DNA of 23,812 nucleotides from a virus. The position numbers and the translations under genes were made by a program. The notes below the pieces were generated by a model that had not been told where the DNA came from, did not search any database, and worked only from the letters and a program-made list of their open reading frames with translations. The stretch is taken from IMG/VR virus record IMGVR_UViG_3300032240_002054, positions 1 to 23,812 of that record. The stretch is one strand, 5' to 3'. This document shows positions 2,333 through 18,254 of the stretch, in pieces. How positions within the stretch are numbered: position 1 is the first letter of the stretch; each line of letters opens with the position of its first letter.

Positions 2333-2770
2333 TTAATCTACAAACGCACGCATTTTTTGTGCCGCCTCAAACGATTTAATCTTAGAGATTACCTCACGTG
2401 CTTGCAGTGTAATAAACACTACCGGTGCACCTTCGTCGTCGGGTTGCACAACAAAACGATCACCGCCGTATTTAATCGTACGAACTAAGTCACCAGCTTT
2501 ACACCAAGGACCTTCAATCCAAGGAGTTAGGTCATCTGGGCTTTTATACGCCAGTGGGCCAACGCTGATTACTTTAGCTACCGTTTCGTTATATCGTAAC
2601 GTTTGTTTGGTCTCATCCACGAGGATAATTCCACCTTTACTTGTTGTCTTTTCTCGGCGTAATTGCACCAATACTCGGTCTCCAAGAATTTCAACACCTG
2701 GATCTACATTTGGAAAACACTCTTGTTCCGAACGCAAATCTGGTTCGTCTTTTGCTTTAAAATCAATCAC
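2333..2770 (-). CDS. GroES-like (Cpn10) co-chaperonin
   Basis: 145 aa. Residues 30-72 match the Cpn10 fold signature: GDRVLVQLRREKTTSKGGII followed by a strand ending AKVISVGP. The KGGIIL at 45-50 matches the GGIxL motif in the mobile loop by which GroES and T4 gp31 dock on GroEL. Later GDLVRT and GGDRFVV strands complete the barrel. It has about 28 extra N-terminal and 20 extra C-terminal residues compared with bacterial GroES. The start is GTG, with GAAAGG upstream. It lies inside the head operon, which suggests it lets host GroEL fold a large or awkward head protein, as gp31 does for the T4 capsid. The family call is confident; the client is inference. Confidence 0.85.
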   Translation of the reverse strand: MIDFKAKDEPDLRSEQECFPNVDPGVEILGDRVLVQLRREKTTSKGGIILVDETKQTLRYNETVAKVISVGPLAYKSPDDLTPWIEGPWCKAGDLVRTIKYGGDRFVVQPDDEGAPVVFITLQAREVISKIKSFEAAQKMRAFVD

Positions 2771-2798: not shown

Positions 2799-2987
2799 CT
2801 ATTCTTCTTCGTCTTCCCTCAAAATTTCATCAATAATGTCAAGTATTGCTTGAAAACCATCAAATCTGCCCACTAAACGTTGGTAATCGTTAAATGAGTT
2901 GACATTAGTTCCAGCAGTGAGGGTTTCTGCCAGTTTTTTTTGTTCGTCTCTCGTACGAGAGATAATTTGTGACAAAAAGTCTTTCAT
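2799..2987 (-). CDS. Small acidic helical protein, unknown
   Basis: 62 aa, predicted all-helical, starting MKDFLSQIISRTRDEQKK and ending in an acidic IDEILREDEEE tail. No membrane segment or catalytic motif. It is the first gene after one copy of the GGGCG-N15-TTGCATTAGT motif, whose TTAGT ends only about six bases before the ATG. The ribosome binding site is weak (TAAG), so a leaderless or near-leaderless transcript is possible. Small helical proteins of this kind are common between portal and scaffold genes in phages. The function is not recognised. Confidence 0.7.
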   Translation of the reverse strand: MKDFLSQIISRTRDEQKKLAETLTAGTNVNSFNDYQRLVGRFDGFQAILDIIDEILREDEEE

Positions 2988-2993
2988 AATCTT

Positions 2994-3023
2994 ACTAATG
3001 CAAGATTATGCAAAAATTCGCCC
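2994..3023 (-). promoter_or_regulatory. Copy 1 of spaced motif GGGCG-N15-TTGCATTAGT (candidate late promoter)
   Basis: Read on the minus strand, GGGCG (3023-3019) is followed by exactly 15 bases and then TTGCATTAGT (3003-2994). It lies in the gap between two minus-strand genes, 6 bases before the ATG at 2987. The same arrangement with the same spacing occurs at 6053-6082 and 8780-8809. Promoter function is inference. Confidence 0.5.
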
Positions 3024-3028
3024 TAAAA

Positions 3029-3244
3029 TTAATAAAAATTACCGCCGCCAATATCATTTAGATTTTTGTCTGGGCCAACTTTACTTGGTTTAGTTACTTT
3101 TCCCTGAGCGGCACCAATTTTCCAGTTGTTATCGCGGTGTGAACCCGATGTACCTTTATCTAATCCTGTTTCTCCAGGGCCACCAGCGTAGCCTGGATTG
3201 CCTGTCATTTTGTATGTTTTACGAAAACCTAACTCATCTGCCAT
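3029..3244 (-). CDS. Small Gly/Lys-rich protein, unknown
   Basis: 71 aa, low-complexity and polar (GNPGYAGGPGETGLDKGTSG, then lysine-rich), probably disordered, ending GGGNFY. The start has an AAGGAT ribosome binding site overlapping the end of the portal gene, so translation is probably coupled to portal. No domain is recognised. Small glycine-rich proteins between portal and scaffold may be minor virion or assembly factors, but nothing in the sequence shows this. A copy of the GGGCG/TTGCATTAGT motif follows its stop codon. Confidence 0.65.
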   Translation of the reverse strand: MADELGFRKTYKMTGNPGYAGGPGETGLDKGTSGSHRDNNWKIGAAQGKVTKPSKVGPDKNLNDIGGGNFY

Positions 3245-3248
3245 TTTA

Positions 3249-6014
3249 TTATCCTTGTTGGGTTGGTTGTTGCTGTTGTTGAGCCGCTTGGTATTCTTGG
3301 TCGGCCTGTTGTTTAATTATGTCTGCTTGACGTTGAAATTCTGCTTCACGCAATGCTATACCATGTTGACGAATATCTGATTCAGATGCCTGCACGGCTT
3401 CAATAGCAGATAAGTTTTGTTCATGTTCAAGCGCTGCTTGTTGCTGGTCTAATTGAGCGCCAGCTTGGATCATAGCGACCCGCTCTCTTGCGGCATTGTT
3501 AATGTTTGCCATGGCAATATCTGTAGCATTGCGTTGGTTATCAATGTTAGTCTGAGTCTGATATTTGGCTTGTAATTCCGCAATTTTTTGTTGTAATTCT
3601 GCAACTTTAAGTTGGTATTCTTGTTGTGACTTTTGCAATTCCATTTGCATATTGGTCTGCGATTCAGCTTGTTTGCGCTGTGTCTCAGCCATTTGAGTTT
3701 TAAGCAACACTTGAGCTGTAGGATCAGCCATCATAGCATTTTGCTGTTGAGCTTGTTGCATCTGAGATACTTTTTGAGCTAGCAACGCAATTTGTTGCGT
3801 GTATTGTTGCAAGTTCATTTTAGCGTCTTCATCAACCATTTGTGATGCCATTGCTAAAGCTTGTTGCGCTTCAATATCCAGTGGTTTTTCTTCGTGCAAA
3901 TCAAACGCATCTCGACCGCCAGCGGCTTGGGCTACATAGGCGCGCATAGATTGCAGGTAATGTAATGTTAAATGTTGTTTAATGTGCTCTAATGCGTGTG
4001 GCGCAAAAGAAGGGCCAATTACTGGATTGCCACCGTATGCAGGGTTAAACGCATACTCTAAGTGCACTCGAATATGGGCAATGTGATCTTGGTCCGGGTA
4101 CGCAGCCGCTGGGCGGCCCATAGTCATAGACACGTTTTCTAATGCTGGATTAGATTCTGCTGCACCTAATGGGTTTGGCAGGATTTCATTTACCGCAGGA
4201 ATTTTAAGTTGTTCTAAAACACGCTGGTACACTGCACGGATATTAAACATTCCGGGAGGCGCAGTTGATGCCATTTGAAGTAAAGCTTGATTCTGGGCAA
4301 CACGCTGGGTTTCAGAAAAAATGTTAGGGTCTGATACAGGTCGTACGTCAGAGTTATACGCAAAGTCACGAACTTTAATTTCTTCGCCGGACTGATTGTC
4401 CATTTCATCAAGGTACCAATGATTGATACGTGAAATGATTTTGAGCGATTTAGCTTGGCTACGATGCAAACGAGCATGGATGCTTGAGAATACTTTGGCA
4501 CCTTGCTCAATAAGAGCTTGGGCTGTTCCAACTGGCATGTTGTTATTTGCTTCGCCAATTTTTTCTTCAGCAGTACTAACAACGCCTTTAGCAGCATCAG
4601 TTAACCAGCCAAGTAAATTAAATAAAACGCTTGATGGTGGATTGAACGGCATGGCCATTGCAATCTTACGTACATCATCTACTCCAGGGGCACCTTCAAT
4701 TTCAACTACTTGAGTGGGTTCAATTCTGTCACTTTGGCCACCAATGCGTCCACCTTTAAGTTTAAGCATTGTCTGGCTGTTGTTGATATGAGCAGCATCA
4801 AGCAAAGCACGTAAAGAACCAGTAAGAGCAGCAGAGAGCCCGCCAATAAGATGGGGGAGGCCAATAGCATAAGCACCGCGCCAAGGAATGAATTTGAACT
4901 CAACATACCAGTCCATTTTTTCAAGTTTCTCATCGCCAGCTTCCCAGTTACGATACAAAGCCAAGACTTTATTGCTTGACTCATCAATTGTTAAAATATA
5001 AGGAGCGCGGCGACCTTCAGTCTCGCTGTCTTCCTCCAAACGCAAGAAACAGGTTATTTCATAAATGCGACGCAAACCATCAATGTTTTTAGATGGTTCG
5101 TCTTTGCCTTCAATTTTAGCGTTTGCTTTTTCGGATTGAGTCTGATCGGTTAATGGTGCGTCAGATGTAAATTCAAAATTTTCTAAATCGCGATAAATAC
5201 CTTGTTCAATACGTTGACGGTATGTATCTTCTGTAATGTCTTGTACTTCTGTTACACGTGGGCTTGTATAAAAGTTAGTTGAGGCCCATGGCAACAAAAT
5301 ATTATCAATTGCCACCCACTCACAAGTTGGACGCTTTTGTTCTGTATCAAAACGCCATTTTAAAAATTGTGAACCGCCTAATGGTAATTGAGTGAGCAAT
5401 TGCTCCATCTCATCACGATATTCTGGAATTTGTTCTGTTAGCTGCCAGTTAAGAAAATTTACTTTTCTGTCAGCTGTTGCTTCTTTTGCTTTGTTTTCTT
5501 CGCCTTTAATATTGGATTTAATTAAACCGCTAGGTGGCAAAAGTTCTTTTGCTGAATTTGCAGCAAAATCTACGCAAGCCTCTGCCATAATCGGGTGCAC
5601 AACTTTAGACGCGCCATCAAATGTGGCCCCTCCGGGTGCATCTTTTCCTAGTCCGGTGCGGCGAAGACCTTCTTCGTATTGTTTATCTCGTTGTTTTCTG
5701 GATTCTTGATCTACGTCAATATAATCTAGATATTCAATAGCTAATGATTGTAAAATTTCTTCATCAAATATGTTTGCTAAATTTTCGTAAAATTCAGGAT
5801 CTTTTTGTGGACCTCGTTTTTCTTGAAAATTAACAATTACTGAACCATCGTCTAATTCAATGACTTCTTGCTCAATTTCTTCCGGATCTAAATCCAAAGA
5901 TTCTTCGTATGCCTTTAAATCATCGTCCTGATCTTCAGCACGATGTACGTTTTCGTCATGATCCAAAGCGGGCAATGATGATCCGGTTTGAATTGGAATT
6001 TGAGGATTGGCCAT
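3249..6014 (-). CDS. Portal protein with long Q-rich coiled-coil C-terminus
   Basis: 921 aa. Residues 1-90 are acidic and variable. A conserved portal-type core follows (DFAANSAKELLPPSG at 149-163, then WLTE/GGSQFLKWRF-type strands and the PFNPPSSVLFNLLGWL segment). Residues from about 700 form a very Gln/Ala-rich coiled coil ending QQQQPTQQG. The portal forms the dodecameric ring through which DNA is packaged and ejected. Its place directly after the large terminase supports the call. The length and helical barrel-like tail resemble long portals of podovirus-type phages. There is no strong ribosome binding site at the ATG; the AGGAAA upstream is about 30 bases away. A motif copy (6053-6082) lies in its leader. 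Confidence 0.85.
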   Translation of the reverse strand: MANPQIPIQTGSSLPALDHDENVHRAEDQDDDLKAYEESLDLDPEEIEQEVIELDDGSVIVNFQEKRGPQKDPEFYENLANIFDEEILQSLAIEYLDYIDVDQESRKQRDKQYEEGLRRTGLGKDAPGGATFDGASKVVHPIMAEACVDFAANSAKELLPPSGLIKSNIKGEENKAKEATADRKVNFLNWQLTEQIPEYRDEMEQLLTQLPLGGSQFLKWRFDTEQKRPTCEWVAIDNILLPWASTNFYTSPRVTEVQDITEDTYRQRIEQGIYRDLENFEFTSDAPLTDQTQSEKANAKIEGKDEPSKNIDGLRRIYEITCFLRLEEDSETEGRRAPYILTIDESSNKVLALYRNWEAGDEKLEKMDWYVEFKFIPWRGAYAIGLPHLIGGLSAALTGSLRALLDAAHINNSQTMLKLKGGRIGGQSDRIEPTQVVEIEGAPGVDDVRKIAMAMPFNPPSSVLFNLLGWLTDAAKGVVSTAEEKIGEANNNMPVGTAQALIEQGAKVFSSIHARLHRSQAKSLKIISRINHWYLDEMDNQSGEEIKVRDFAYNSDVRPVSDPNIFSETQRVAQNQALLQMASTAPPGMFNIRAVYQRVLEQLKIPAVNEILPNPLGAAESNPALENVSMTMGRPAAAYPDQDHIAHIRVHLEYAFNPAYGGNPVIGPSFAPHALEHIKQHLTLHYLQSMRAYVAQAAGGRDAFDLHEEKPLDIEAQQALAMASQMVDEDAKMNLQQYTQQIALLAQKVSQMQQAQQQNAMMADPTAQVLLKTQMAETQRKQAESQTNMQMELQKSQQEYQLKVAELQQKIAELQAKYQTQTNIDNQRNATDIAMANINNAARERVAMIQAGAQLDQQQAALEHEQNLSAIEAVQASESDIRQHGIALREAEFQRQADIIKQQADQEYQAAQQQQQPTQQG

Positions 6015-6052
6015 AGATTAGTATTTAAAGGTATTATTTGTTTCCTAGTTAC

Positions 6053-6082
6053 ACTAATGCAAATTTAACTTGCATTCCGCCC
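6053..6082 (-). promoter_or_regulatory. Copy 2 of spaced motif GGGCG-N15-TTGCATTAGT (candidate late promoter)
   Basis: On the minus strand GGGCG (6082-6078), 15 bases, then TTGCATTAGT (6062-6053), in the 71-base gap between the terminase stop and the portal start. Here the motif ends about 38 bases before the portal ATG, farther than in the other two copies. Confidence 0.5.
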
Positions 6083-6085
6083 TAA

Positions 6086-7531
6086 TTATTGTGCATAAGG
6101 GTTAGAAAATCGTCTTTTTATATCATCGTCTACATAAGAATAATCTCTAGCAGGCAGTAAATCAAGTTGTAACCACCCGGAATCCCTTAAAACCCGCAAA
6201 GCCTGGGATAATGAGTCCACGTAGTCATCGTGACCCCCAGCTTCTGGAAAAGAACAAACCTGGCGTAAAAAGCGTTTTGCCCATGCTGCAAAATCACCTT
6301 TTTGTTCGGAATCTTCTGGAATAAACACTTTACCTTTGGCTACGAGCGGTGCCACAATGTTAAGACGCTGTACTTTATCGGCGCGACCAGGGTTATACCC
6401 GCGCACTGGAACTCCGGAACCTTGGAGTTCTTGTATTAAAGAAATACCGGCGGATTTGTCTTCCATTAATATAAGATCTGCTTTTCTGCCTTTTCCAAAG
6501 TCATTGTCCGCCCCGTAAACTACTTCTTTAAAATCATCAATTACTTTTCTACGTAATTCTGGGTAGGATAAGTGTGCGTCCCATGAGTCTAAAAGGATTA
6601 CGCAAGTGCCTGCGTCTTCTCTATCAAATATGCCCCAGACCGTACAGGCCGTTGGGTCATTCATAGTTTTTTCAGAAGTAGCTGGATCGTATGAGGCAAT
6701 AACGTATTCTAAGGTTGGGGTTGGTTTGTTGGCCGGCCACATCTTAAACTGCTTGCGTTTGATAATGCCGGCTTGTTCCGGGTCAAGAATCTCGCCGTAA
6801 ATCTCTTGGCGACCAATATCGGTGCCATCGTATGTCTCTAACTGTTTAAAAAATGTTTCGGAGAGGTTCGCCCTATTGTCGTACGAGGACGCGTTGGCAA
6901 CGTAGACGTCACCCCCGACTTTACCTTCGTTAAGGTCGACGATAAGCTCTTTTGGCTTTGGCGTTGTGGTGATGATTTGTTGAACACGAGAAAGTCTTGG
7001 GTCTCGCAGACGGAGTGTAAACTGTACTCCATCGTATGCCTCATCAATATAGTCGAATGCACACAGCTCATCAAACCAGGCTCCATGGTATTGTTTACCA
7101 CGATAGCGTTCTGGCTCGGAGGCTGGTATTCCTTGAATAAGAGATCCGTTTGTGAGGGTAATCTCAAAGAGGGACTTGTTGTAATCTCGTATAAGTGACG
7201 CGGGTATGATATTAAGAAGACCGGAGTCTCCTTCGAAGCAAGTTGCACGGATATCATTAGAGGTTGGGGCAGTGACAAGCCAGCGTGTGTTGTCGTAATT
7301 CCAAGCCCTAATGCCAATCCAATGACTAGCAGTATGCGTCTTGCCAGATCCCCGGCCAGCAAGCATAAGGAATGTGTCGTATTCTCCATCTTCTGGTTCT
7401 TTTTGATGTGGCAATGCTTGAATAGCCCATTTGACTTGCCAAATAGCAGCATCGAGCTGTTGTTTGGGCCAGTGTGCATTTTGTTGGGCGAATTTTTTAA
7501 GAACAAATTCTTGTTTTTCTGTTAATGGCAT
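6086..7531 (-). CDS. terL: Terminase large subunit (packaging ATPase-nuclease)
   Basis: 481 aa, normal length for the family. Walker A is AGRGSGKT (58-65), Walker B is WFDEL (152-156, catalytic Glu155), and the coupling motif ITTTP lies at 187-191. The RNase H-like nuclease domain shows its acidic residues at ASYDPA (Asp282), LMEDKSAG (Glu357/Asp358) and GGHDDYVDS (Asp435/436/439). It cuts concatemeric DNA and pumps it through the portal. Its ATG overlaps the last codons of the preceding intein-like gene (GCATGCCATTAA), so translation is probably coupled. All catalytic residues I can check are present. No intein interrupts this gene. Confidence 0.95.
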   Translation of the reverse strand: MPLTEKQEFVLKKFAQQNAHWPKQQLDAAIWQVKWAIQALPHQKEPEDGEYDTFLMLAGRGSGKTHTASHWIGIRAWNYDNTRWLVTAPTSNDIRATCFEGDSGLLNIIPASLIRDYNKSLFEITLTNGSLIQGIPASEPERYRGKQYHGAWFDELCAFDYIDEAYDGVQFTLRLRDPRLSRVQQIITTTPKPKELIVDLNEGKVGGDVYVANASSYDNRANLSETFFKQLETYDGTDIGRQEIYGEILDPEQAGIIKRKQFKMWPANKPTPTLEYVIASYDPATSEKTMNDPTACTVWGIFDREDAGTCVILLDSWDAHLSYPELRRKVIDDFKEVVYGADNDFGKGRKADLILMEDKSAGISLIQELQGSGVPVRGYNPGRADKVQRLNIVAPLVAKGKVFIPEDSEQKGDFAAWAKRFLRQVCSFPEAGGHDDYVDSLSQALRVLRDSGWLQLDLLPARDYSYVDDDIKRRFSNPYAQ

Positions 7532-8502
7532 GCAATAAAGCCTTCTCCCGCTAGGATTGCGTTATTTTCTCCATCTGTTTCGATGTGAACACAAAGCTGG
7601 GGTTTAATTGGTATTACTTTTGAAATATACCGCCTACCATAGTAAACCTTAAACGGAGGCGATTGTTGATCACAGGTTAATTTTAACCTAGATTTAAAGA
7701 AAAGTGTATATTGTTTACAATAAGTATCGTTTCTTACGTTGATTCTATGGCCAAGAGATTCAATTAAGTATTGAACCTGCAATATGGTGCGGTAAAACTT
7801 TGAAGAAAACCGAAATGTGTCGTTTCTTTTGTTGTAACGTCTTGATTTTGTGTACAAAATTCCACGAAGCAGTTCTATTCTTTGCTCGTGTGACGCCAAA
7901 AGGTAGTTATTTGGTATTGAGGTGGGTATGTTTGGTACTAAATGTGACTCAACCGTGGGGGAAACTGTAAATTCCCCAAGTTTATTGTGGACGGTTGGCA
8001 TGTATCCTGCATCTTTAAACTCTTGAAGAATAACTTCTTCGTAACCAGCGGGTAAACACATGCGTTTGTTTTTGCGTCGGTTAAAAAACCAAAAGCCAAA
8101 TACGAATGGCGGTACTGGTAGGTCTTGGGCTGGGAGCTGTAATGGTTTTGCTGTGGGTATGGAATATAGTTTTCGCTTGGTTTCTGATTCCAAGGGGTTA
8201 CTAGACAGATATTCTGCAGTATAGTAACGCAAATCTCTTTTAAATTTTTGGACTTGTTTGTATTCGCACAGTTGGATTCTGTCCCTTTTGTTTTCTACGC
8301 CAAACGTAAGGTGTTTGTCACCCGACATAGTCAGGCCGTCATTAAACTGAACTTCAAAACAATCGTTAGCCTGATATGGCTGGACTAGCTTAATGCGAGT
8401 TAGTTTGCCGTCTTGATTAAATACATAGTCACCGACCTGCAGATTTGCTGCGCTTTTCCAGTAATCAAGAGTTAATACTTTTTGAGTTGCCAGTATCGCC
8501 AT
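7522..8502 (-). CDS. Stand-alone intein-like protein (Hint fold plus degenerate LAGLIDADG)
   Basis: 326 aa from the ATG at 8502; an in-frame TTG at 8514 could add four codons. Intein-type blocks can be followed. Block A is at 10-28 (LTLDYWKSAANLQVGDYVF), block B at 56-66 (GLTMSGDKHLTF region), and block F at the end (HIETDG...AILAGEGFIACH). Between them lie two LAGLIDADG-like helices, VFGFWFFN (134-141) and LLRGILYT (211-218). The nucleophilic Cys1 of block A and the terminal Asn are absent, and both LAGLIDADG motifs lack the acidic metal ligand. Splicing and DNA cutting therefore look lost. The frame is intact and overlaps terminase by 10 bases. It may be a domesticated intein remnant. Function unknown. 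Confidence 0.75.
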   Translation of the reverse strand: MAILATQKVLTLDYWKSAANLQVGDYVFNQDGKLTRIKLVQPYQANDCFEVQFNDGLTMSGDKHLTFGVENKRDRIQLCEYKQVQKFKRDLRYYTAEYLSSNPLESETKRKLYSIPTAKPLQLPAQDLPVPPFVFGFWFFNRRKNKRMCLPAGYEEVILQEFKDAGYMPTVHNKLGEFTVSPTVESHLVPNIPTSIPNNYLLASHEQRIELLRGILYTKSRRYNKRNDTFRFSSKFYRTILQVQYLIESLGHRINVRNDTYCKQYTLFFKSRLKLTCDQQSPPFKVYYGRRYISKVIPIKPQLCVHIETDGENNAILAGEGFIACH

Positions 8503-8773
8503 ATAAGTTTTCAAGGACCCAACGGTCCAGCCAAAGCCCTAACGGCTCTCTAATTGCACGTTGAATTTTATAGGGCAATGCCTGTATATTCAACGCCTCG
8601 TCTGTTAATGTTAATCTAAATTGAATGTATTTGTGGGTTTCAATATCTAGTATATCCGCTGGCACATCAACTAAATTAATAAAATGGGAATTGCAAACCA
8701 AAATTCTTAAACCAATAAAATGTCCTTGTGCATTTTCCAATGCCCCATTTATTTGGTATGCGTATTTTTCCAT
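8465..8773 (-). CDS. Unknown protein at the head of the packaging operon
   Basis: 102 aa (MEKYAYQINGALENAQGHFIGLRILV...). A mixed alpha/beta soluble protein with no membrane segment and no helix-turn-helix that I can recognise. It is the first gene of the leftward operon and sits where a small terminase subunit is often found, but the sequence does not show that role. Its 3' end overlaps the intein-like gene by 38-50 bases in another frame. The third motif copy (8780-8809) ends six bases before the ATG. No strong ribosome binding site is present. Confidence 0.65.
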   Translation of the reverse strand: MEKYAYQINGALENAQGHFIGLRILVCNSHFINLVDVPADILDIETHKYIQFRLTLTDEALNIQALPYKIQRAIREPLGLWLDRWVLENLYGDTGNSKSINS

Positions 8774-8779
8774 AGTTCT

Positions 8780-8809
8780 ACTAATGCAAAATTTAAGGGG
8801 TTTACGCCC
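8780..8809 (-). promoter_or_regulatory. Copy 3 of spaced motif GGGCG-N15-TTGCATTAGT (candidate late promoter)
   Basis: On the minus strand GGGCG (8809-8805), 15 bases, TTGCATTAGT (8789-8780), immediately upstream of the first gene of the leftward operon. The position at the head of the whole structural operon is the best single argument for a promoter. Confidence 0.55.
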
Positions 8810-8852
8810 AAAACACTACATCTAGTAGTTTTTTAAGCACCAACCACTAAAA

Positions 8853-8978
<126 letters not shown>

Positions 8979-9122
8979 GCTCCTAAGTGCTTGATTTATA
9001 TAGGGGGGCATTTTATGCAAAAAAAAATAAAAAAACTTGCTTTTTGTGGGGCCCCCTCCCAGTCCCCGTCGGACAGGACCCTTTTTGGGGCATAGGCACT
9101 TAGAAAAGCCCCCACCTCACTA

Positions 9123-9281
9123 ATGCACCACATTGGTGCATAACCTAGCCACCACATAGCCAACACACCTCATAGGTAATGCAACCTAGCGCACCACATT
9201 GGTGCATTGACTAATGCACTATGTTGGTGCATTGGCTAAGTGCTAGTGTGGTGTGTTGGTGGGGCGCACCACATTGGTGCA
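9123..9281. repeat. Four near-copies of a dyad, GCACCACATTGGTGC core
   Basis: Perfect or near-perfect dyads occur at 9123-9141 (ATGCACCACATTGGTGCAT), 9191-9206, 9214-9232 (one half changed, ATGCACTATGTTGGTGCAT) and 9266-9281. Two copies are followed by a longer direct repeat, GGTGCATTGGCTAAGTGCT, at 9226 and 9276. The 15-19 bp length with a three-base centre fits a dimeric repressor or activator operator. The irregular 70/20/50-base spacing also fits initiator-binding iterons. Confidence 0.8.
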
Positions 9282-9374
9282 TTGGCTAAGTGCTGGTGTG
9301 GTGATGCGGGTGCGAGAGCTTGTCTAGTGATGTGGCGAATTGGTGCTACTTAATAGCAATATGGGTTCTACACG

Positions 9375-9451
9375 ATACAGTAAAAGCCCTACATAAAATA
9401 CAGTAAAACCCCTACACAGTTTTCCAGTTTGTAGGCGATAATGATTGTAGG
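9375..9451. promoter_or_regulatory. Direct and inverted CCTACA/TGTAGG repeats upstream of first rightward gene
   Basis: Two 19-bp direct repeats differing at one base (9375-9393 and 9398-9416, period 23) each end in CCTACA. Two further copies in the opposite orientation, TGTAGG, lie at 9430-9435 and 9446-9451. A GATAAT at 9437-9442 could be a -10 element, but I see no good -35. The arrangement suggests binding sites for a regulator of the rightward operon. Confidence 0.45.
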
Positions 9452-9500
9452 AAAGCAATAACGCTGACCTGATTACTAACCCATTACGAGGAATAGAACA

Positions 9501-10088
9501 ATGCAAACACTAAACAGAGAAGCGTATCTTAACTACATTACAGATACATATGCCCGCCCTCACTTTCAAGCTAAGGGCTACACCATCCCCGCCAATGTGC
9601 GTATGTCATGCTCACTTACAAGCCGTAAGAAAGCAATAGGACAATGTTGGTCTAGCGAAGCAAGCGAAGATAAGCACTTTGAAATATTCATTCACCCATC
9701 ACTAGCTGATTCTGTTGAGGTAATAGATACACTCATACATGAGTTATGCCATGCAACAGTAGGCAATCAAGCGGGTCATGGTAAGGTGTTTAAACAATGC
9801 GCCCTTTCAGTTGGCTTACAAGGTCAGATGAGATCAGCAAGCGCAAGCCCTGAATTAAAAGCCATCATTCAATCATGGGTATCAGAAGCGGGACAATATC
9901 CCCATGCACCCCTCACACAGTCAGGCATCAAGAAGCAATCAACCCGCATGATTAAATGTGTATGCTCTCATTGTGGCTATCAGGTTTATACAAGTAAGAA
10001 GTGGATAGAAGTAGTCCCGCCATCATGCCCTGATAATGAGTGTGAAGCATTCGGGTGGTCTATGAATGTAGGCACATCTGACCAATAA
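9501..10088 (+). CDS. SprT-like zinc metalloprotease
   Basis: 195 aa. The protease motif HELCH lies at 80-84 with a third zinc ligand in GHG (His93). A C-terminal zinc ribbon has C-V-C-x2-C (153-158) and C-x4-C (176-181). The order protease core then zinc ribbon, and the length, match bacterial SprT and its phage relatives. SprT-family proteins are related to Spartan, which degrades proteins cross-linked to DNA; the role in phages is not settled. The start has GAGGAA before the ATG. It is the first gene of the rightward operon, so it is probably expressed early. It contains the first GTTTAAAC site (9788). Confidence 0.85.
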   Translation: MQTLNREAYLNYITDTYARPHFQAKGYTIPANVRMSCSLTSRKKAIGQCWSSEASEDKHFEIFIHPSLADSVEVIDTLIHELCHATVGNQAGHGKVFKQCALSVGLQGQMRSASASPELKAIIQSWVSEAGQYPHAPLTQSGIKKQSTRMIKCVCSHCGYQVYTSKKWIEVVPPSCPDNECEAFGWSMNVGTSDQ

Positions 10089-10921: not shown

Positions 10922-11020
10922 ATGACCAAAGATGATTTTTATTGCACTTTGCTACTCATAGGGTTATTCCTAGTATTTTGTTTTGCCCCCGATCTGTATA
11001 TTCCATCATTCCAACAGTAA
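10922..11020 (+). CDS. Micro-protein with one membrane helix
   Basis: 32 aa: MTKDDFYC, then a hydrophobic segment (TLLLIGLFLVFCFA) and a short PDLYIPSFQQ tail. GGAGGT lies about ten bases before the ATG, with the GTTTAAAC site in between, which supports translation. It is probably an inner-membrane single-span protein. Function unknown. Another reading of the same DNA extends the following ATPase upstream; I prefer this small gene because of its strong ribosome binding site. Confidence 0.5.
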   Translation: MTKDDFYCTLLLIGLFLVFCFAPDLYIPSFQQ

Positions 11021-11037
11021 AAACGAAAGGTATTACA

Positions 11038-12117
11038 ATGTCAGACCTCTATAAATCCCTATCACTTGCAGACACCGCCAATTTGATTATGGCAGTTGGG
11101 GACACAACCACAGTATTAGCACAAGGCGAGATGGGGATAGGTAAATCCTCTATCCTATCTATCCTTAAAGCCAAGCTAGGTGCAACACACCATTTTTGCT
11201 ATGGTGACATGACTACCAAAGATGTAGGGGATTTTTTAGTCCCGAAGATAAGAAGTTTAAACGATACCGAAGTATGTAGTTTTATTCCTAACGAGGAATT
11301 TGGCTTTCACTTTGATAAGCCCATTGTGTTGATGCTTGATGAGATCGGCAAGGCATCAAAGGCAGTCATGAACGCTTGCCTACGCTTAATGCTAGAACGC
11401 AAGTTAGGCACATATTCACTACCCGAAGGGTCTATTGTATTTGCCACTACAAATCTTGCCAATGAAGCAATAGGAGACAATTTGCCACCCCATGCCCGCA
11501 ATAGAATCTCAGTTGTGAAAGTGCGTAAACCATCAGCCGATGAGTGGATTGAATGGGCTTTAGATAATGAGATAGCCCCCGAAGTATTGATGACAGTCAA
11601 ACAATTTCCGCAGATGTTGGCATCATTTGAGGATTTTAACAACCCATCGGACAATGAATACATCTACGACCCACGCACACCCCGCCCCGCATTTTGCACT
11701 CCACGCAGTTTAAACAAGGCATCGGACATTATTAAAAAAGCCAAGCCACTTGGCACAGACATCATGGCACACGCATTAAAAGGCACGATTGGCAACAGAG
11801 CCACATACGATATGCTATCTATTATTCAATTAACCGATGAGCTACCAACATGGGAACAGATCATCAAAGAGCCAACCAAAACCCAAGTGCCACAGTCCCC
11901 AAGTGCAGTTTGTATGTTGGTCTATTCGGCTATTCAACAAGTAGAAAAGGACAATATCAACAAGTGGATTGAATACATGAACCGCTTGACTAAAGAAGCA
12001 CAGGGCTTGTTTGCCACATCAGTAATGAGAACAAGCAAAAAGACAACAGTTGGAACATCACAGGGGTTTATAAAATGGGCTACCGCAAACAATTACCTAT
12101 TCGCACAGAGCAATTAA
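11038..12117 (+). CDS. MoxR-type AAA+ ATPase
   Basis: 359 aa. Walker A is GEMGIGKS (30-37), Walker B is VLMLDE (97-102), sensor 1 is FATTN (135-139), and a likely arginine finger lies in HARNRI (152-157). The C-terminal half is helical. MoxR ATPases act as chaperone-like remodellers together with a partner carrying a VWA domain. Such a partner is encoded 550 bases downstream (12666-13838), so the two probably form one machine. The start at ATG 11038 has AAAGG at the right distance. It carries two GTTTAAAC sites (11255, 11708), both read as Ser-Leu-Asn. Confidence 0.85.
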   Translation: MSDLYKSLSLADTANLIMAVGDTTTVLAQGEMGIGKSSILSILKAKLGATHHFCYGDMTTKDVGDFLVPKIRSLNDTEVCSFIPNEEFGFHFDKPIVLMLDEIGKASKAVMNACLRLMLERKLGTYSLPEGSIVFATTNLANEAIGDNLPPHARNRISVVKVRKPSADEWIEWALDNEIAPEVLMTVKQFPQMLASFEDFNNPSDNEYIYDPRTPRPAFCTPRSLNKASDIIKKAKPLGTDIMAHALKGTIGNRATYDMLSIIQLTDELPTWEQIIKEPTKTQVPQSPSAVCMLVYSAIQQVEKDNINKWIEYMNRLTKEAQGLFATSVMRTSKKTTVGTSQGFIKWATANNYLFAQSN

Positions 12118-12122
12118 AAGTC

Positions 12123-12329
12123 ATGGGGACTTATAGTTTCAAAATGCGTATGAACAAGATCGACCAAGAGTTTAAACATTCTTTGCAATACCGCATAACA
12201 CAGGCGGAATCGACTAAAGAAAAGCGGGAGTTGATAGCAGAGTCAAACCCTCTCTTTTATGTGTTTGGTGAAAAGTGCATGGTGTTTAAACCTTATCAAA
12301 CATACGAGGAAAACTATGGAATATTCTGA
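12123..12329 (+). CDS. Small basic protein, unknown
   Basis: 68 aa, starting MGTYSFKMRMNKIDQEF, charged and helical in the middle (QAESTKEKRELIAE) and ending KPYQTYEENYGIF. It starts five bases after the ATPase stop; a longer start inside the ATPase gene is less likely. The ribosome binding site is weak, so coupling to the ATPase is likely. It holds two GTTTAAAC sites, both read as Phe-Lys. Its end overlaps the next gene by 14 bases. Lying between ATPase and VWA gene it may be an accessory, but nothing shows this. Confidence 0.6.
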   Translation: MGTYSFKMRMNKIDQEFKHSLQYRITQAESTKEKRELIAESNPLFYVFGEKCMVFKPYQTYEENYGIF

Positions 12330-12504
12330 AATTTTTTTAATCGTATGGGCTACGATTGCCACAGTTTTAGCGATTGCTTTCCATCAAATAGCTAAAAGGC
12401 AGAAAATTAGATTGTTTATGATGGAATTTAGCCTACACGCTATCGCCCATAAAAAGGCAGAAGTGATTATCGAGGGCGATAACATCAAGGTAAGGGAGGT
12501 TTAA
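12316..12504 (+). CDS. Single-span membrane protein, unknown
   Basis: 62 aa with an N-terminal membrane helix (EIFLIVWATIATVLAIAF, residues about 5-22), then a basic stretch (HQIAKRQKIR) and a polar C-terminal domain. The positive-inside rule places the C-terminal part in the cytoplasm. GAGGAAA lies just before the ATG. It ends on TAA inside a GTTTAAAC site preceded by GGGAGG. Its place between the MoxR ATPase and the VWA gene raises the idea of a membrane anchor for that system, which is inference. Confidence 0.6.
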   Translation: MEYSEIFLIVWATIATVLAIAFHQIAKRQKIRLFMMEFSLHAIAHKKAEVIIEGDNIKVREV

Positions 12505-12507
12505 ACA

Positions 12508-12663
12508 ATGCTAAGCATAACAGACCGACAACGAGAAGCTGTAGTAGGGTATTTTTATGATTCCGAAACCGCTTACCTTGTAGATTTACTTATGAGGTAT
12601 TTGCCCGAAGATTTTATTCGTGGTATGGCAGAACGACTAACCCAAGATGACGAGGAAATTTAA
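12508..12663 (+). CDS. Small acidic helical protein, unknown
   Basis: 51 aa (MLSITDRQREAVVGYFYDSE...LLMRYLPEDFIRGMAERL...DDEEI), predicted helical and acidic. GGGAGG upstream and the tight junctions on both sides support it. It ends on TAA inside ATTTAAAC, a one-base variant of the iterated palindrome, two bases before the VWA gene. Function unknown. Confidence 0.6.
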   Translation: MLSITDRQREAVVGYFYDSETAYLVDLLMRYLPEDFIRGMAERLTQDDEEI

Positions 12664-12665
12664 AC

Positions 12666-13838
12666 ATGGCATTAACCGCAGAACAACGCATTGAAAGATG
12701 CCATATTGATTTAATGAAGCACCCGCAATTTGTAGCTTATTCGGGCATACTTATGATCGGTGAAACCAAGATAGATGACAAGATACCAACCGCTTGCACT
12801 AATGGTAAAGATATTAAATTTGGCAGAGATTTTGTGATGAGTTTAAACGACCCGCAGTTGCGAGGTTTGATATTACATGAAGCCAAGCACAAGATGTATC
12901 GCCATTTATTAACATGGAAACACTTACATAAGCAAGATGCACAGAGAGCTAACATGGCTTGCGATTTTGTGATTAACCTAGAGATTAAAGACGAATCCGA
13001 AAGGTCGCAAAAATTTGTTGTGTTGCCCGATGGCGCATTAGTCAATGAGAAGTTTAGAGGTTTAAACTCAGCCGAAGTGTTCGCATTATTACCAACGCAA
13101 CAAGGTGGTGGGGGTAGTGGTAGCGGGCAAGGTGATGGTGGTGAGGGTTTCGACGAACACGATTGGGAAGGTGCAGAGAGTTTAAACGACGAGGAAAAAA
13201 CCGCCCTAGCCAAAGAGATTGACCAAGCAATTAGGCAAGGTGCAATCTTGGCGGGTAAAGTTGGTGGTAATGTTGATCGTGCATTTACAGACCTCATGAG
13301 TGCTAAAGTAGATTGGAAAGAAGCACTAAGAGAATTTGTATCTAGCGTATCAGTTGGTAAAGACGATTCAACATGGCGAAAACCTAACCGCAGATGGCTA
13401 CAACATGACATCTATATGCCATCGACTGTTAGCGAATCTATGGGTCGAGTTGTTGTGGCGATTGATACATCGGGCAGTATTTATGGTGAGGTGTTAAACC
13501 GATTCGTAAGTGAAGTGGCTAGTGTCATGACTAACATGAATCCTGAACAAGTTGATCTATTGTATTGGGATTGTAATGTGGCGGGTCATGAGGTGTATGG
13601 TTTAAACGATGCGGATAGAATGACATCATCAACCAAGCCCAAAGGTGGGGGTGGCACAAGCCCATCTTGTATCACCAAGTATATGAGCAAGCATAAGATC
13701 GAACCAGTTTGCGCCATCATTCTTACCGATGGCTATGTAGGAAGTGATTGGGGAGGACAATGGAATTGCCCTACATTATGGACAATCACTAGCGACATCA
13801 AGTCCCCGATAGGTCAAACTATAAAGATAGAGGTGTGA
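12666..13838 (+). CDS. VWA-domain protein with metallopeptidase-like N-terminus, partner of the MoxR ATPase
   Basis: 390 aa. The N-terminal domain has HEAKH (71-75), as in the putative metallopeptidase family often written DUF2201. A glycine-rich linker (145-160) and an acidic segment follow. The C-terminal half is a VWA-like domain with a MIDAS motif DTSGS (267-271) and a second acidic site LTDG (Asp355). In bacteria such proteins bind metal through MIDAS and act as adaptors for MoxR ATPases. GAGGAA upstream supports the start. It has four GTTTAAAC sites, all read as Leu-Asn. Whether the HEAKH is catalytic is unknown. Confidence 0.8.
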   Translation: MALTAEQRIERCHIDLMKHPQFVAYSGILMIGETKIDDKIPTACTNGKDIKFGRDFVMSLNDPQLRGLILHEAKHKMYRHLLTWKHLHKQDAQRANMACDFVINLEIKDESERSQKFVVLPDGALVNEKFRGLNSAEVFALLPTQQGGGGSGSGQGDGGEGFDEHDWEGAESLNDEEKTALAKEIDQAIRQGAILAGKVGGNVDRAFTDLMSAKVDWKEALREFVSSVSVGKDDSTWRKPNRRWLQHDIYMPSTVSESMGRVVVAIDTSGSIYGEVLNRFVSEVASVMTNMNPEQVDLLYWDCNVAGHEVYGLNDADRMTSSTKPKGGGGTSPSCITKYMSKHKIEPVCAIILTDGYVGSDWGGQWNCPTLWTITSDIKSPIGQTIKIEV

Positions 13839-17155: not shown

Positions 17156-17181
17156 ATAGTTTTCACCACTTGAAAACTATA
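17155..17181 (+). promoter_or_regulatory. 11-bp inverted repeat over the start site of the sigma gene, candidate operator
   Basis: TATAGTTTTCA (17155-17165) and TGAAAACTATA (17171-17181) are perfect reverse complements around CCACT. The left half starts within the -10 box, and the right half ends on the A of the ATG start codon. Transcription would begin inside the repeat, so a DNA operator that blocks polymerase is more likely than an mRNA hairpin. Confidence 0.6.
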
Positions 17182-17747
17182 TGCAAGAAAATGACATTTT
17201 AAGCGACTATCTACAATCCCTATATGGTATAGAGCCACTTACAACCGATCAAGAGCATGATCTAGCCCGCAAAATTAAAGAGGGTGACGATGATGCTCTT
17301 GAAAAGTTGATTACCCACAATCTTAGGTTTGTTGTCTATATAGCTAGGCAGATGAGCTATTGGGAAAGAAGCAAAATACCACCTGAAGATATTATTGCCA
17401 TTGGAAACCAAGCCCTCTTTGAGTGTGCTAGAAAATGGAAGCCAAGAAATAGGGCAAAGTTTGCCACTTATGCCAAATCATTTATAAGGCGGGGAATCCA
17501 AAGAGAAGTGGACAATACCGCCAACATCATTCGACTACCAATAAACATCATGGAAGCCATTAAGCGAATGAATTATAACGAAAGAGCATTAGCTCAAATT
17601 TTAGGCAGAAAACCAAAAAATAAAGAATTGGCAAAAATAATGGGGATTTCAGAATCAAGGGTCAGTCAATTACAAGCCTACATAGCCCGAGAACCTATAT
17701 CAATAGACAACCTAAACCAAGAAAAAATAGAGGAAAATGATGATTAG
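17181..17747 (+). CDS. Short sigma-70 family factor without recognisable region 4
   Basis: 188 aa. Region 1.2-like at 5-35 (LSDYLQSLYGIEPLTTDQEH), region 2.1-2.2 at 41-84 (LITHNLRFVVYIARQM, DIIAIGNQALFECARKW), regions 2.3-2.4 at 92-120 (FATYAKSFIRRGIQ..NIIRLP), and a region 3-like helical domain at 121-170 (NKELAKIMGISESRVSQLQ). The -35-reading region 4 is missing; the protein ends in an acidic tail. It should bind core polymerase through region 2 and read -10-like elements. It has its own promoter and an operator-like repeat but no clear ribosome binding site. It could direct the phage late promoters. The family is sure, the target is inference. Confidence 0.85.
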   Translation: MQENDILSDYLQSLYGIEPLTTDQEHDLARKIKEGDDDALEKLITHNLRFVVYIARQMSYWERSKIPPEDIIAIGNQALFECARKWKPRNRAKFATYAKSFIRRGIQREVDNTANIIRLPINIMEAIKRMNYNERALAQILGRKPKNKELAKIMGISESRVSQLQAYIAREPISIDNLNQEKIEENDD

Positions 17748-18045
17748 TCTAAACGAAGATCAGAAAAAAGCATATGACCGCTTTATAAAAGCAAGGGACA
17801 TTATTTATAAACGCAAAAATAATTGGGTTAGGGCGGGGGATATAAAGACAACAGTAGATATTGTTGGTCTAAACCATCCACTATACGAAGCCAACCTTGA
17901 ATACGAGGAATACAAGGAAGCGTTTAAACAATGGCTGGAAGTTGAACCCGCATTTAGAGATGCAGAACGCATGAGATCAACAAGAGGGGATTATGGAGCA
18001 GTTGATTCGTGGGATGAAAAACCGAGTAAAATCAAGGAGTTATGA
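17740..18045 (+). CDS. Small charged protein, unknown
   Basis: 101 aa from the second of two adjacent ATGs, chosen because AGAGG then lies about six bases upstream; the first ATG is at 17737. Helical and charged (LNEDQKKAYDRFIKARDIIY..., LEYEEYKEAFKQWLEVEPAF) with a polar C-terminal tail. Its start overlaps the sigma stop codon, so the two are translationally coupled. It could be a sigma partner such as a co-activator, by position only. It carries one GTTTAAAC (17922), read as Phe-Lys. Confidence 0.65.
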   Translation: MISLNEDQKKAYDRFIKARDIIYKRKNNWVRAGDIKTTVDIVGLNHPLYEANLEYEEYKEAFKQWLEVEPAFRDAERMRSTRGDYGAVDSWDEKPSKIKEL

Positions 18046-18254
18046 TGTCATTAACAGAAAAAGGTAGGGTGGTTTGCACCGATATTTACGATGCTGATGG
18101 AAATTTAACGCGTTGTGAAGCATATACGAGAGATGAAAAATTTGTATTACAAGCAATTTGGGATGAGAGGGATGAGCAGACCTCAGCCAACCGAGAGGAA
18201 TTTCGAAAGTGGTTCTACCGCCACCTTGAACAAAGTGGATATGCAGTAGATTGA
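18045..18254 (+). CDS. Small protein, unknown, last gene of the central operon
   Basis: 69 aa from the second ATG of ATGATG, five bases after a strong AAGGAG; the first ATG at 18042 would be too close. It begins with a beta-type stretch (GRVVCTDIYDADGNLTRCEA) and ends in an acidic helix (EEFRKWFYRHLEQSGYAVD). It is followed directly by the last GTTTAAAC site and a terminator. Not recognised. Confidence 0.6.
   Translation: MSLTEKGRVVCTDIYDADGNLTRCEAYTRDEKFVLQAIWDERDEQTSANREEFRKWFYRHLEQSGYAVD

Follow-up and report, generated by a model that had tools for sequence, protein, structure and literature searches.

Late transcription in phage T4 depends on gp55, gp33 and the gp45 clamp, which act at promoters with a -10 type element only. 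In phage λ, the cI mRNA made from PRM is leaderless and starts at the A of its AUG. The late promoters of Salmonella phage 7-11 are read by the phage sigma factor SaPh711_gp47, have the consensus GTAAtg-(16)-aCTA and are present in eight copies per genome, with transcripts starting 6-9 bp from the element; early genes are served by the host sigma-70 (PMC8948821). This bipartite late promoter goes together with a sigma factor that has a region-4-like C-terminus (PMC8948821). The sigma factor of phage phiEco32, gp36, lacks region 4; the middle and late promoters of this phage consist of a single element, tAATGTAtA, and the missing -35 element has been explained by the missing region 4 (PMC8948821).

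The DNA analysed here (the window) is a stretch of 23,812 nucleotides from the IMG/VR virus record IMGVR_UViG_3300032240_002054. A sequence-only reading of it had singled out a two-block motif, GGGCG-N15-TTGCATTAGT, in three gaps of the leftward operon. The motif is indeed found at all three places, always on the minus strand and with no mismatch in its 15 fixed bases:

2994..3023, minus strand: putative promoter copy 1, with -35 block GGGCG at 3023-3019 and -10 block TTGCATTAGT at 3003-2994
2987, minus strand: predicted +1 of copy 1, an A that is the first base of an ATG; predicted leaderless
6053..6082, minus strand: putative promoter copy 2, which precedes the portal gene; the A at 6046 is its predicted +1 and would give a 32-nt leader
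8780..8809, minus strand: putative promoter copy 3, preceding the first gene of the leftward operon
8773, minus strand: predicted +1 of copy 3, an A that is the first base of an ATG; predicted leaderless

When up to three mismatches are allowed, the window holds four sites (the three perfect ones and one poor one) against 0.67 expected from dinucleotide shuffles. The motif is also longer than had been seen before, and can be written (A)GGGCG(G)A[AT][AT]-..-ttt-TTGCATTAGTA-N4-TA[G/T]G.

Several lines of evidence indicate that this motif is in all likelihood a real and widespread promoter. A scan of IMG/VR returned the exact pattern in at least 119 viral contig stretches, many with two to four copies, and a TATT variant, TTGCATTATT, in at least 120. 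Each of 11 larger relatives (sequences of 36-68 kb, completeness not stated) contains three to eight copies at one mismatch or less; the reversed control pattern is absent from the same 11. Copies are almost always intergenic: when the -10 variants are included in the pattern, only 3 of the 51 sites in ten sequences, the window and nine larger relatives, fall inside open reading frames of at least 80 aa, which make up 86% of the sequence. In a logo built from 254 copies with distinct spacers, selected at one mismatch or less, the downstream block A-N4-TA[G/T]G emerges in columns that played no part in selection, with A at -6 in 81%, T at -1 in 96%, A at +1 in 98%, G or T at +2 in 93% and G at +3 in 82%; these unselected columns also show A or G immediately 5' of GGGCG. 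The nearly invariant A seven bases past TTGCATTAGT is predicted to mark the transcription start. Numbered from this A, GGGCG occupies -36 to -32 and TTGCATTAGT -16 to -7. By the standards of established promoter architecture, GGGCGG-N17-CATTAG followed by a start 7-8 nt downstream would be the canonical geometry of a sigma-dependent promoter. A literature search of partial coverage found no paper naming the promoter or the phage group.

T7-class promoters end in TATAG, and the segment TTGCATTAGTAGGTATAGG resembles them. One could envision that TTGCATTAGT-NNN-NTATAG, about 20 bp long, serves a single-subunit phage RNA polymerase as its promoter, GGGCG being something else. This would leave the fixed distance of GGGCG unexplained, and the early region of a 66-kb relative (G002) has no unassigned open reading frame of polymerase size; we regard the idea as very improbable. 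T7-type polymerases were sought with PF00940, T7 itself scoring at about 1e-109 as positive control, and none was found in the 11 relatives or the window.

The genes that the three copies would serve belong to the head and packaging region:

2799..2987, minus strand: 62-aa gene without a family match, predicted to be leaderless
3249..6014, minus strand: gene for the portal (head-to-tail connecting) protein, served by copy 2
8465..8773, minus strand: 102-aa gene upstream of the terminase, without a family match, predicted to be leaderless

Downstream of the 62-aa gene lie a GroES-like gene, genes for proteins of 330 and 185 aa and capsid-region genes. In G002, whose portal homolog matches a portal family, copies precede the 102-aa gene and terminase, the portal gene, the 62-aa gene with the GroES and head genes, and later blocks of the late strand. 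One further copy, on the other strand, lies ahead of the genes for an exonuclease, a single-stranded DNA-binding protein, ribonucleotide reductase and DNA polymerase. The designation late promoter, as initially proposed, therefore fits the late gene blocks but is too narrow: one copy per larger relative precedes replication genes, which makes "middle/late" the more fitting name for the class. In contigs that carry a sigma gene, the replication-side copy is located about 8-10 kb downstream of it, so its position in the window would be beyond the right end.

Other features of this genome deserve mention. The GroES-like co-chaperonin (2333-2770, minus strand) is phage-encoded and sits within the head gene block. 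A 330-aa open reading frame (7522-8514, minus strand), which separates the 102-aa gene from the terminase, looks like a stand-alone intein or Hint-type protein; its PHROG matches are weak and involve parts of profiles for terminase and helicase loader. Among the early genes, an AAA ATPase is found near a DUF2201 metallopeptidase/VWA-like protein (10942-13838, plus strand), an arrangement that can be compared with MoxR-VWA pairs. The divergent intergenic region at 8860-9300, a possible origin or regulatory region, contains a long T tract, GCACCAATGTGGTGC palindromes that recur and repeats of the GTACTACTAGT type; GCATTAGT is found close by. A sigma-70 consensus scan of 8700-9700 gave no more matches than chance, and early promoters were not located.

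The most distinctive property of the motif is its position relative to start codons. The sequence-only reading had noted that the end of two copies is six bases away from a downstream ATG with no good ribosome site. This is correct for copy 1 (ATG at 2987) and copy 3 (ATG at 8773); the end of copy 2 is separated from the portal ATG (6014) by 38 bases. To see this arrangement independently of the motif, loci were collected by portal or sigma homology only, and the DNA upstream of the homologs of the 62-aa and 102-aa proteins was then read. Of 50 distinct upstream regions of the 62-aa gene, 48 have a -10 block whose end is exactly 6 nt away from the ATG, as do all 55 distinct regions of the 102-aa gene. 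In sequence, the exact distance is thus kept in 103 of the 105 upstream regions. No Shine-Dalgarno 4-mer occurs 5-20 nt before the ATG in any of the 105. GGGCG is found at exactly -36 in 46 of the 50 regions of the 62-aa gene and in 14 of the 55 of the 102-aa gene (37 of 55 if one mismatch is allowed). In the latter, the -35 block is less strictly kept, with forms such as GGACG and GGGCT, which would be expected if the promoters differ in strength. Because a -10 block ending 6 nt before the ATG places the start codon on the predicted +1, these mRNAs should be leaderless. The suggestion of a protein-read phage promoter producing nearly leaderless mRNAs agrees with all the sequence evidence and can be sharpened: copies 1 and 3 should yield exactly leaderless transcripts, with the A of the ATG as +1. 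As with λ cI, the predicted start is the A of the AUG; what differs is that nearly every homolog of two genes from the head/packaging region keeps this arrangement throughout a large group of phages.

The DNA around copy 1 can also pair as RNA:

2985..3010, minus strand: inverted repeat CATAATCTT-gcattagt-AAGATTATG, around the -10 block of copy 1

In read-through RNA of the window, a 53-nt stretch has a predicted folding energy of -17.0 kcal/mol, and the AUG within it is paired (P = 0.99). In promoters of the 62-aa gene, an inverted repeat in fixed register would let the spacer pair with the sequence around the AUG: in this register, 29 of 82 distinct copies have at least nine consecutive pairs, against two at most in other registers. 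Pairing at the RNA level is indicated by wobble changes across from the invariant AUG, and by an alternation between C-G and T-A at codon 2; the pair count over all copies is noisier, with 13 C-A and 8 A-A. No such register was found in promoters of the other leaderless gene (8773). Since a leaderless mRNA from the 62-aa promoter would be without the other hairpin arm, the structure is a possible gate that blocks translation of read-through RNA. Some spacers contain a different structure, GGGCG-loop-CGCCC-TTTTTT; hairpins of -6 kcal/mol or less are present in 16% of 117 representatives, compared with 4% in shuffles. Such spacers might perhaps combine terminator and promoter in one. This enrichment lends some credit to the idea that the motif as a whole is mainly an RNA element, a terminator or hairpin between operons, and not a promoter. 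However, most copies are devoid of such a hairpin, and conservation of GGGCG and the -10 block, of their spacing and of the start A does not depend on it; moreover, a terminator would not require an ATG exactly at +1, as seen in 103 distinct cases. An RNA element is accordingly a most improbable account of the motif.

If the motif is a promoter, the question arises as to what reads it. The early, rightward region of the window contains a cassette of interest in this respect:

17181..17747, plus strand: phage sigma factor of 188 aa, likely reader of the -10 block
17737..18045, plus strand: 102-aa cassette protein, its coding sequence overlapping with the sigma gene's end; candidate co-activator or reader of the -35 block
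18042..18254, plus strand: 70-aa protein encoded by the last of the three genes in the conserved sigma cassette, with a putative role only

The sigma protein has regions 1.2, 2 and 3 above Pfam cut-offs and a PHROG sigma match; a Pfam search found no region 4 in it. A predicted model (mean pLDDT 81) matches sigma chains, including a T. aquaticus 1.2-3.1 fragment. Homologs in relatives are equally short, with open frames of 190-207 aa. A sigma-70-family factor is thus encoded alongside several conserved intergenic copies of the motif that precede late and middle blocks, and we consider this protein the best candidate for the reader. Two relatives, MW202545 and Caulobacter phage RW, whose portals are 48-51% identical, have no sigma homolog, and the motif is missing from the 50 kb scanned in each.

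Variation in the -10 block provides a further hint. Supported branches in a tree of 69 distinct sigmas set -10 variants apart: sigmas that go with T or A at -8 are confined to one side of one such branch (99/96), and those that go with CG at -15/-14 to one side of another (100/100). Variants are mostly coherent within genomes and mixed in a few (e.g. L435, L440, L446, L447). The agreement fits recognition by the sigma, although it could also reflect shared ancestry of whole genomes and not direct recognition.

A promoter read by a host sigma or by some other phage activator, the phage sigma not being the reader, has to be weighed here. Such a reader would account for a strict -35 block next to a phage sigma without region 4. 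It would also account for the distribution of the sigma gene: a homolog is present in 9 of 12 sequences and absent from three that bear the motif (G005, G009 and G011). These three are 46-50 kb contigs, however, and G005 and G009 appear to end near the early region where the sigma would be expected. The -10 variants follow the sigma tree, and the blocks GGGCG(G) and CATTAG/ATTAGT are unlike the TTGACA/TATAAT consensus of sigma-70. In addition, when the early genes up to the right end of the window were compared with the six larger sigma-bearing relatives, four alone were found in all six, namely those for the sigma, the overlapping 102-aa protein, the 70-aa protein and the primase. On balance, we find a host sigma or another activator rather unlikely as the reader.

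Recognition by the phage sigma leaves the -35 block to be accounted for. GGGCG is strict in the logo, and a sigma without region 4 could not read it alone, which implies a separate -35 reader. From the conservation of the cassette, we infer that one of its small proteins, of 102 or 70 aa, would replace region 4. The 102-aa cassette family comprises 57 distinct sequences and has no Pfam match, and no DNA-binding family was detected in either neighbour of the sigma gene. For the fold of the 102-aa cassette protein, solved structures gave no match and BFVD returned only two uncharacterised phage proteins. A stand-alone region-4 protein was dismissed as a general -35 reader: a 56-aa open reading frame of this kind is present in G002 (17512-17682, minus strand) and in no other sequence searched.

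In our opinion, the motif probably serves a large group of freshwater phages as a middle/late promoter, read by the host RNA polymerase core with the phage sigma, the -35 block being contacted by another protein. Sigma produced from the early region would reprogram the host core. The resulting holoenzyme would melt DNA at the extended -10 element TTGCATTAGT and start at the A seven bases further on; GGGCG, at its canonical distance, would be needed as well and would be read by the other protein, most simply the 102-aa or the 70-aa cassette product. Where the ATG coincides with +1, the mRNA would be leaderless and be translated without a Shine-Dalgarno site. It is tempting to speculate on a fuller scheme, a split sigma in which the protein with regions 1.2-3 reads the extended -10, a separate cassette protein reads GGGCG, +1 coincides with the AUG, and, for the 62-aa gene, pairing of the spacer with the AUG in read-through RNA ensures that only transcripts from the gene's own promoter are translated; taken together, these elements form a possible, still tentative proposal.

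As in phage 7-11, a bipartite promoter precedes late blocks, and the host core with a phage sigma, established there, is proposed here. Differences from 7-11 are the consensus, a sigma without region 4, and predicted leaderless starts, none being reported for that phage (PMC8948821). The present system resembles phiEco32 in having a sigma without region 4 and in serving middle and late genes, but differs from it by a strict -35 block despite the missing region. Since the pairing of -35 element and region 4 is a trait of 7-11 and not of phiEco32, its failure here would mark a variant and would not exclude this kind of promoter. The T4 late system likewise has a reduced sigma without region 4 and requires a co-activator; unlike T4 late promoters, the motif described here is bipartite, with a -35 block. 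Late promoters read by phage sigmas are thus known, while the strict -35 block without region 4 and the exact leaderless placement appear to be new.

A pattern scan of a genome collection gave ten matches, four of which (Legionella, Delta1, Bacteroidetes and Flavobacteriaceae) look like chance. Contigs of the phage group sit in metagenome-assembled genomes assigned, in this collection, to the genus of Polynucleobacter parvulilacunae. In P. parvulilacunae Ross1-W9 (NZ_JACVPW010000003.1), an integrated element has a full copy of the TATT-variant promoter (positions 1625-1663) between its integrase and its D5-type primase; by our own estimate, chance alone would give about 0.04 such matches across the 186 genomes searched in this genus. 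This element is possibly a phage satellite that uses its helper's promoter. These weak pointers suggest Polynucleobacter as host of the phage group.

The phages concerned are widespread in freshwater and known mainly from metagenomes. A promoter class defined by sequence would allow their late and replication operons to be annotated straight from contigs, and its pairing with a cognate sigma cassette makes it testable in vitro. The class would contradict the simple rule by which a sigma without region 4 means a promoter without a -35 element. Finally, head-region genes predicted to be strictly leaderless in many phages may offer a natural system for studies of leaderless translation.
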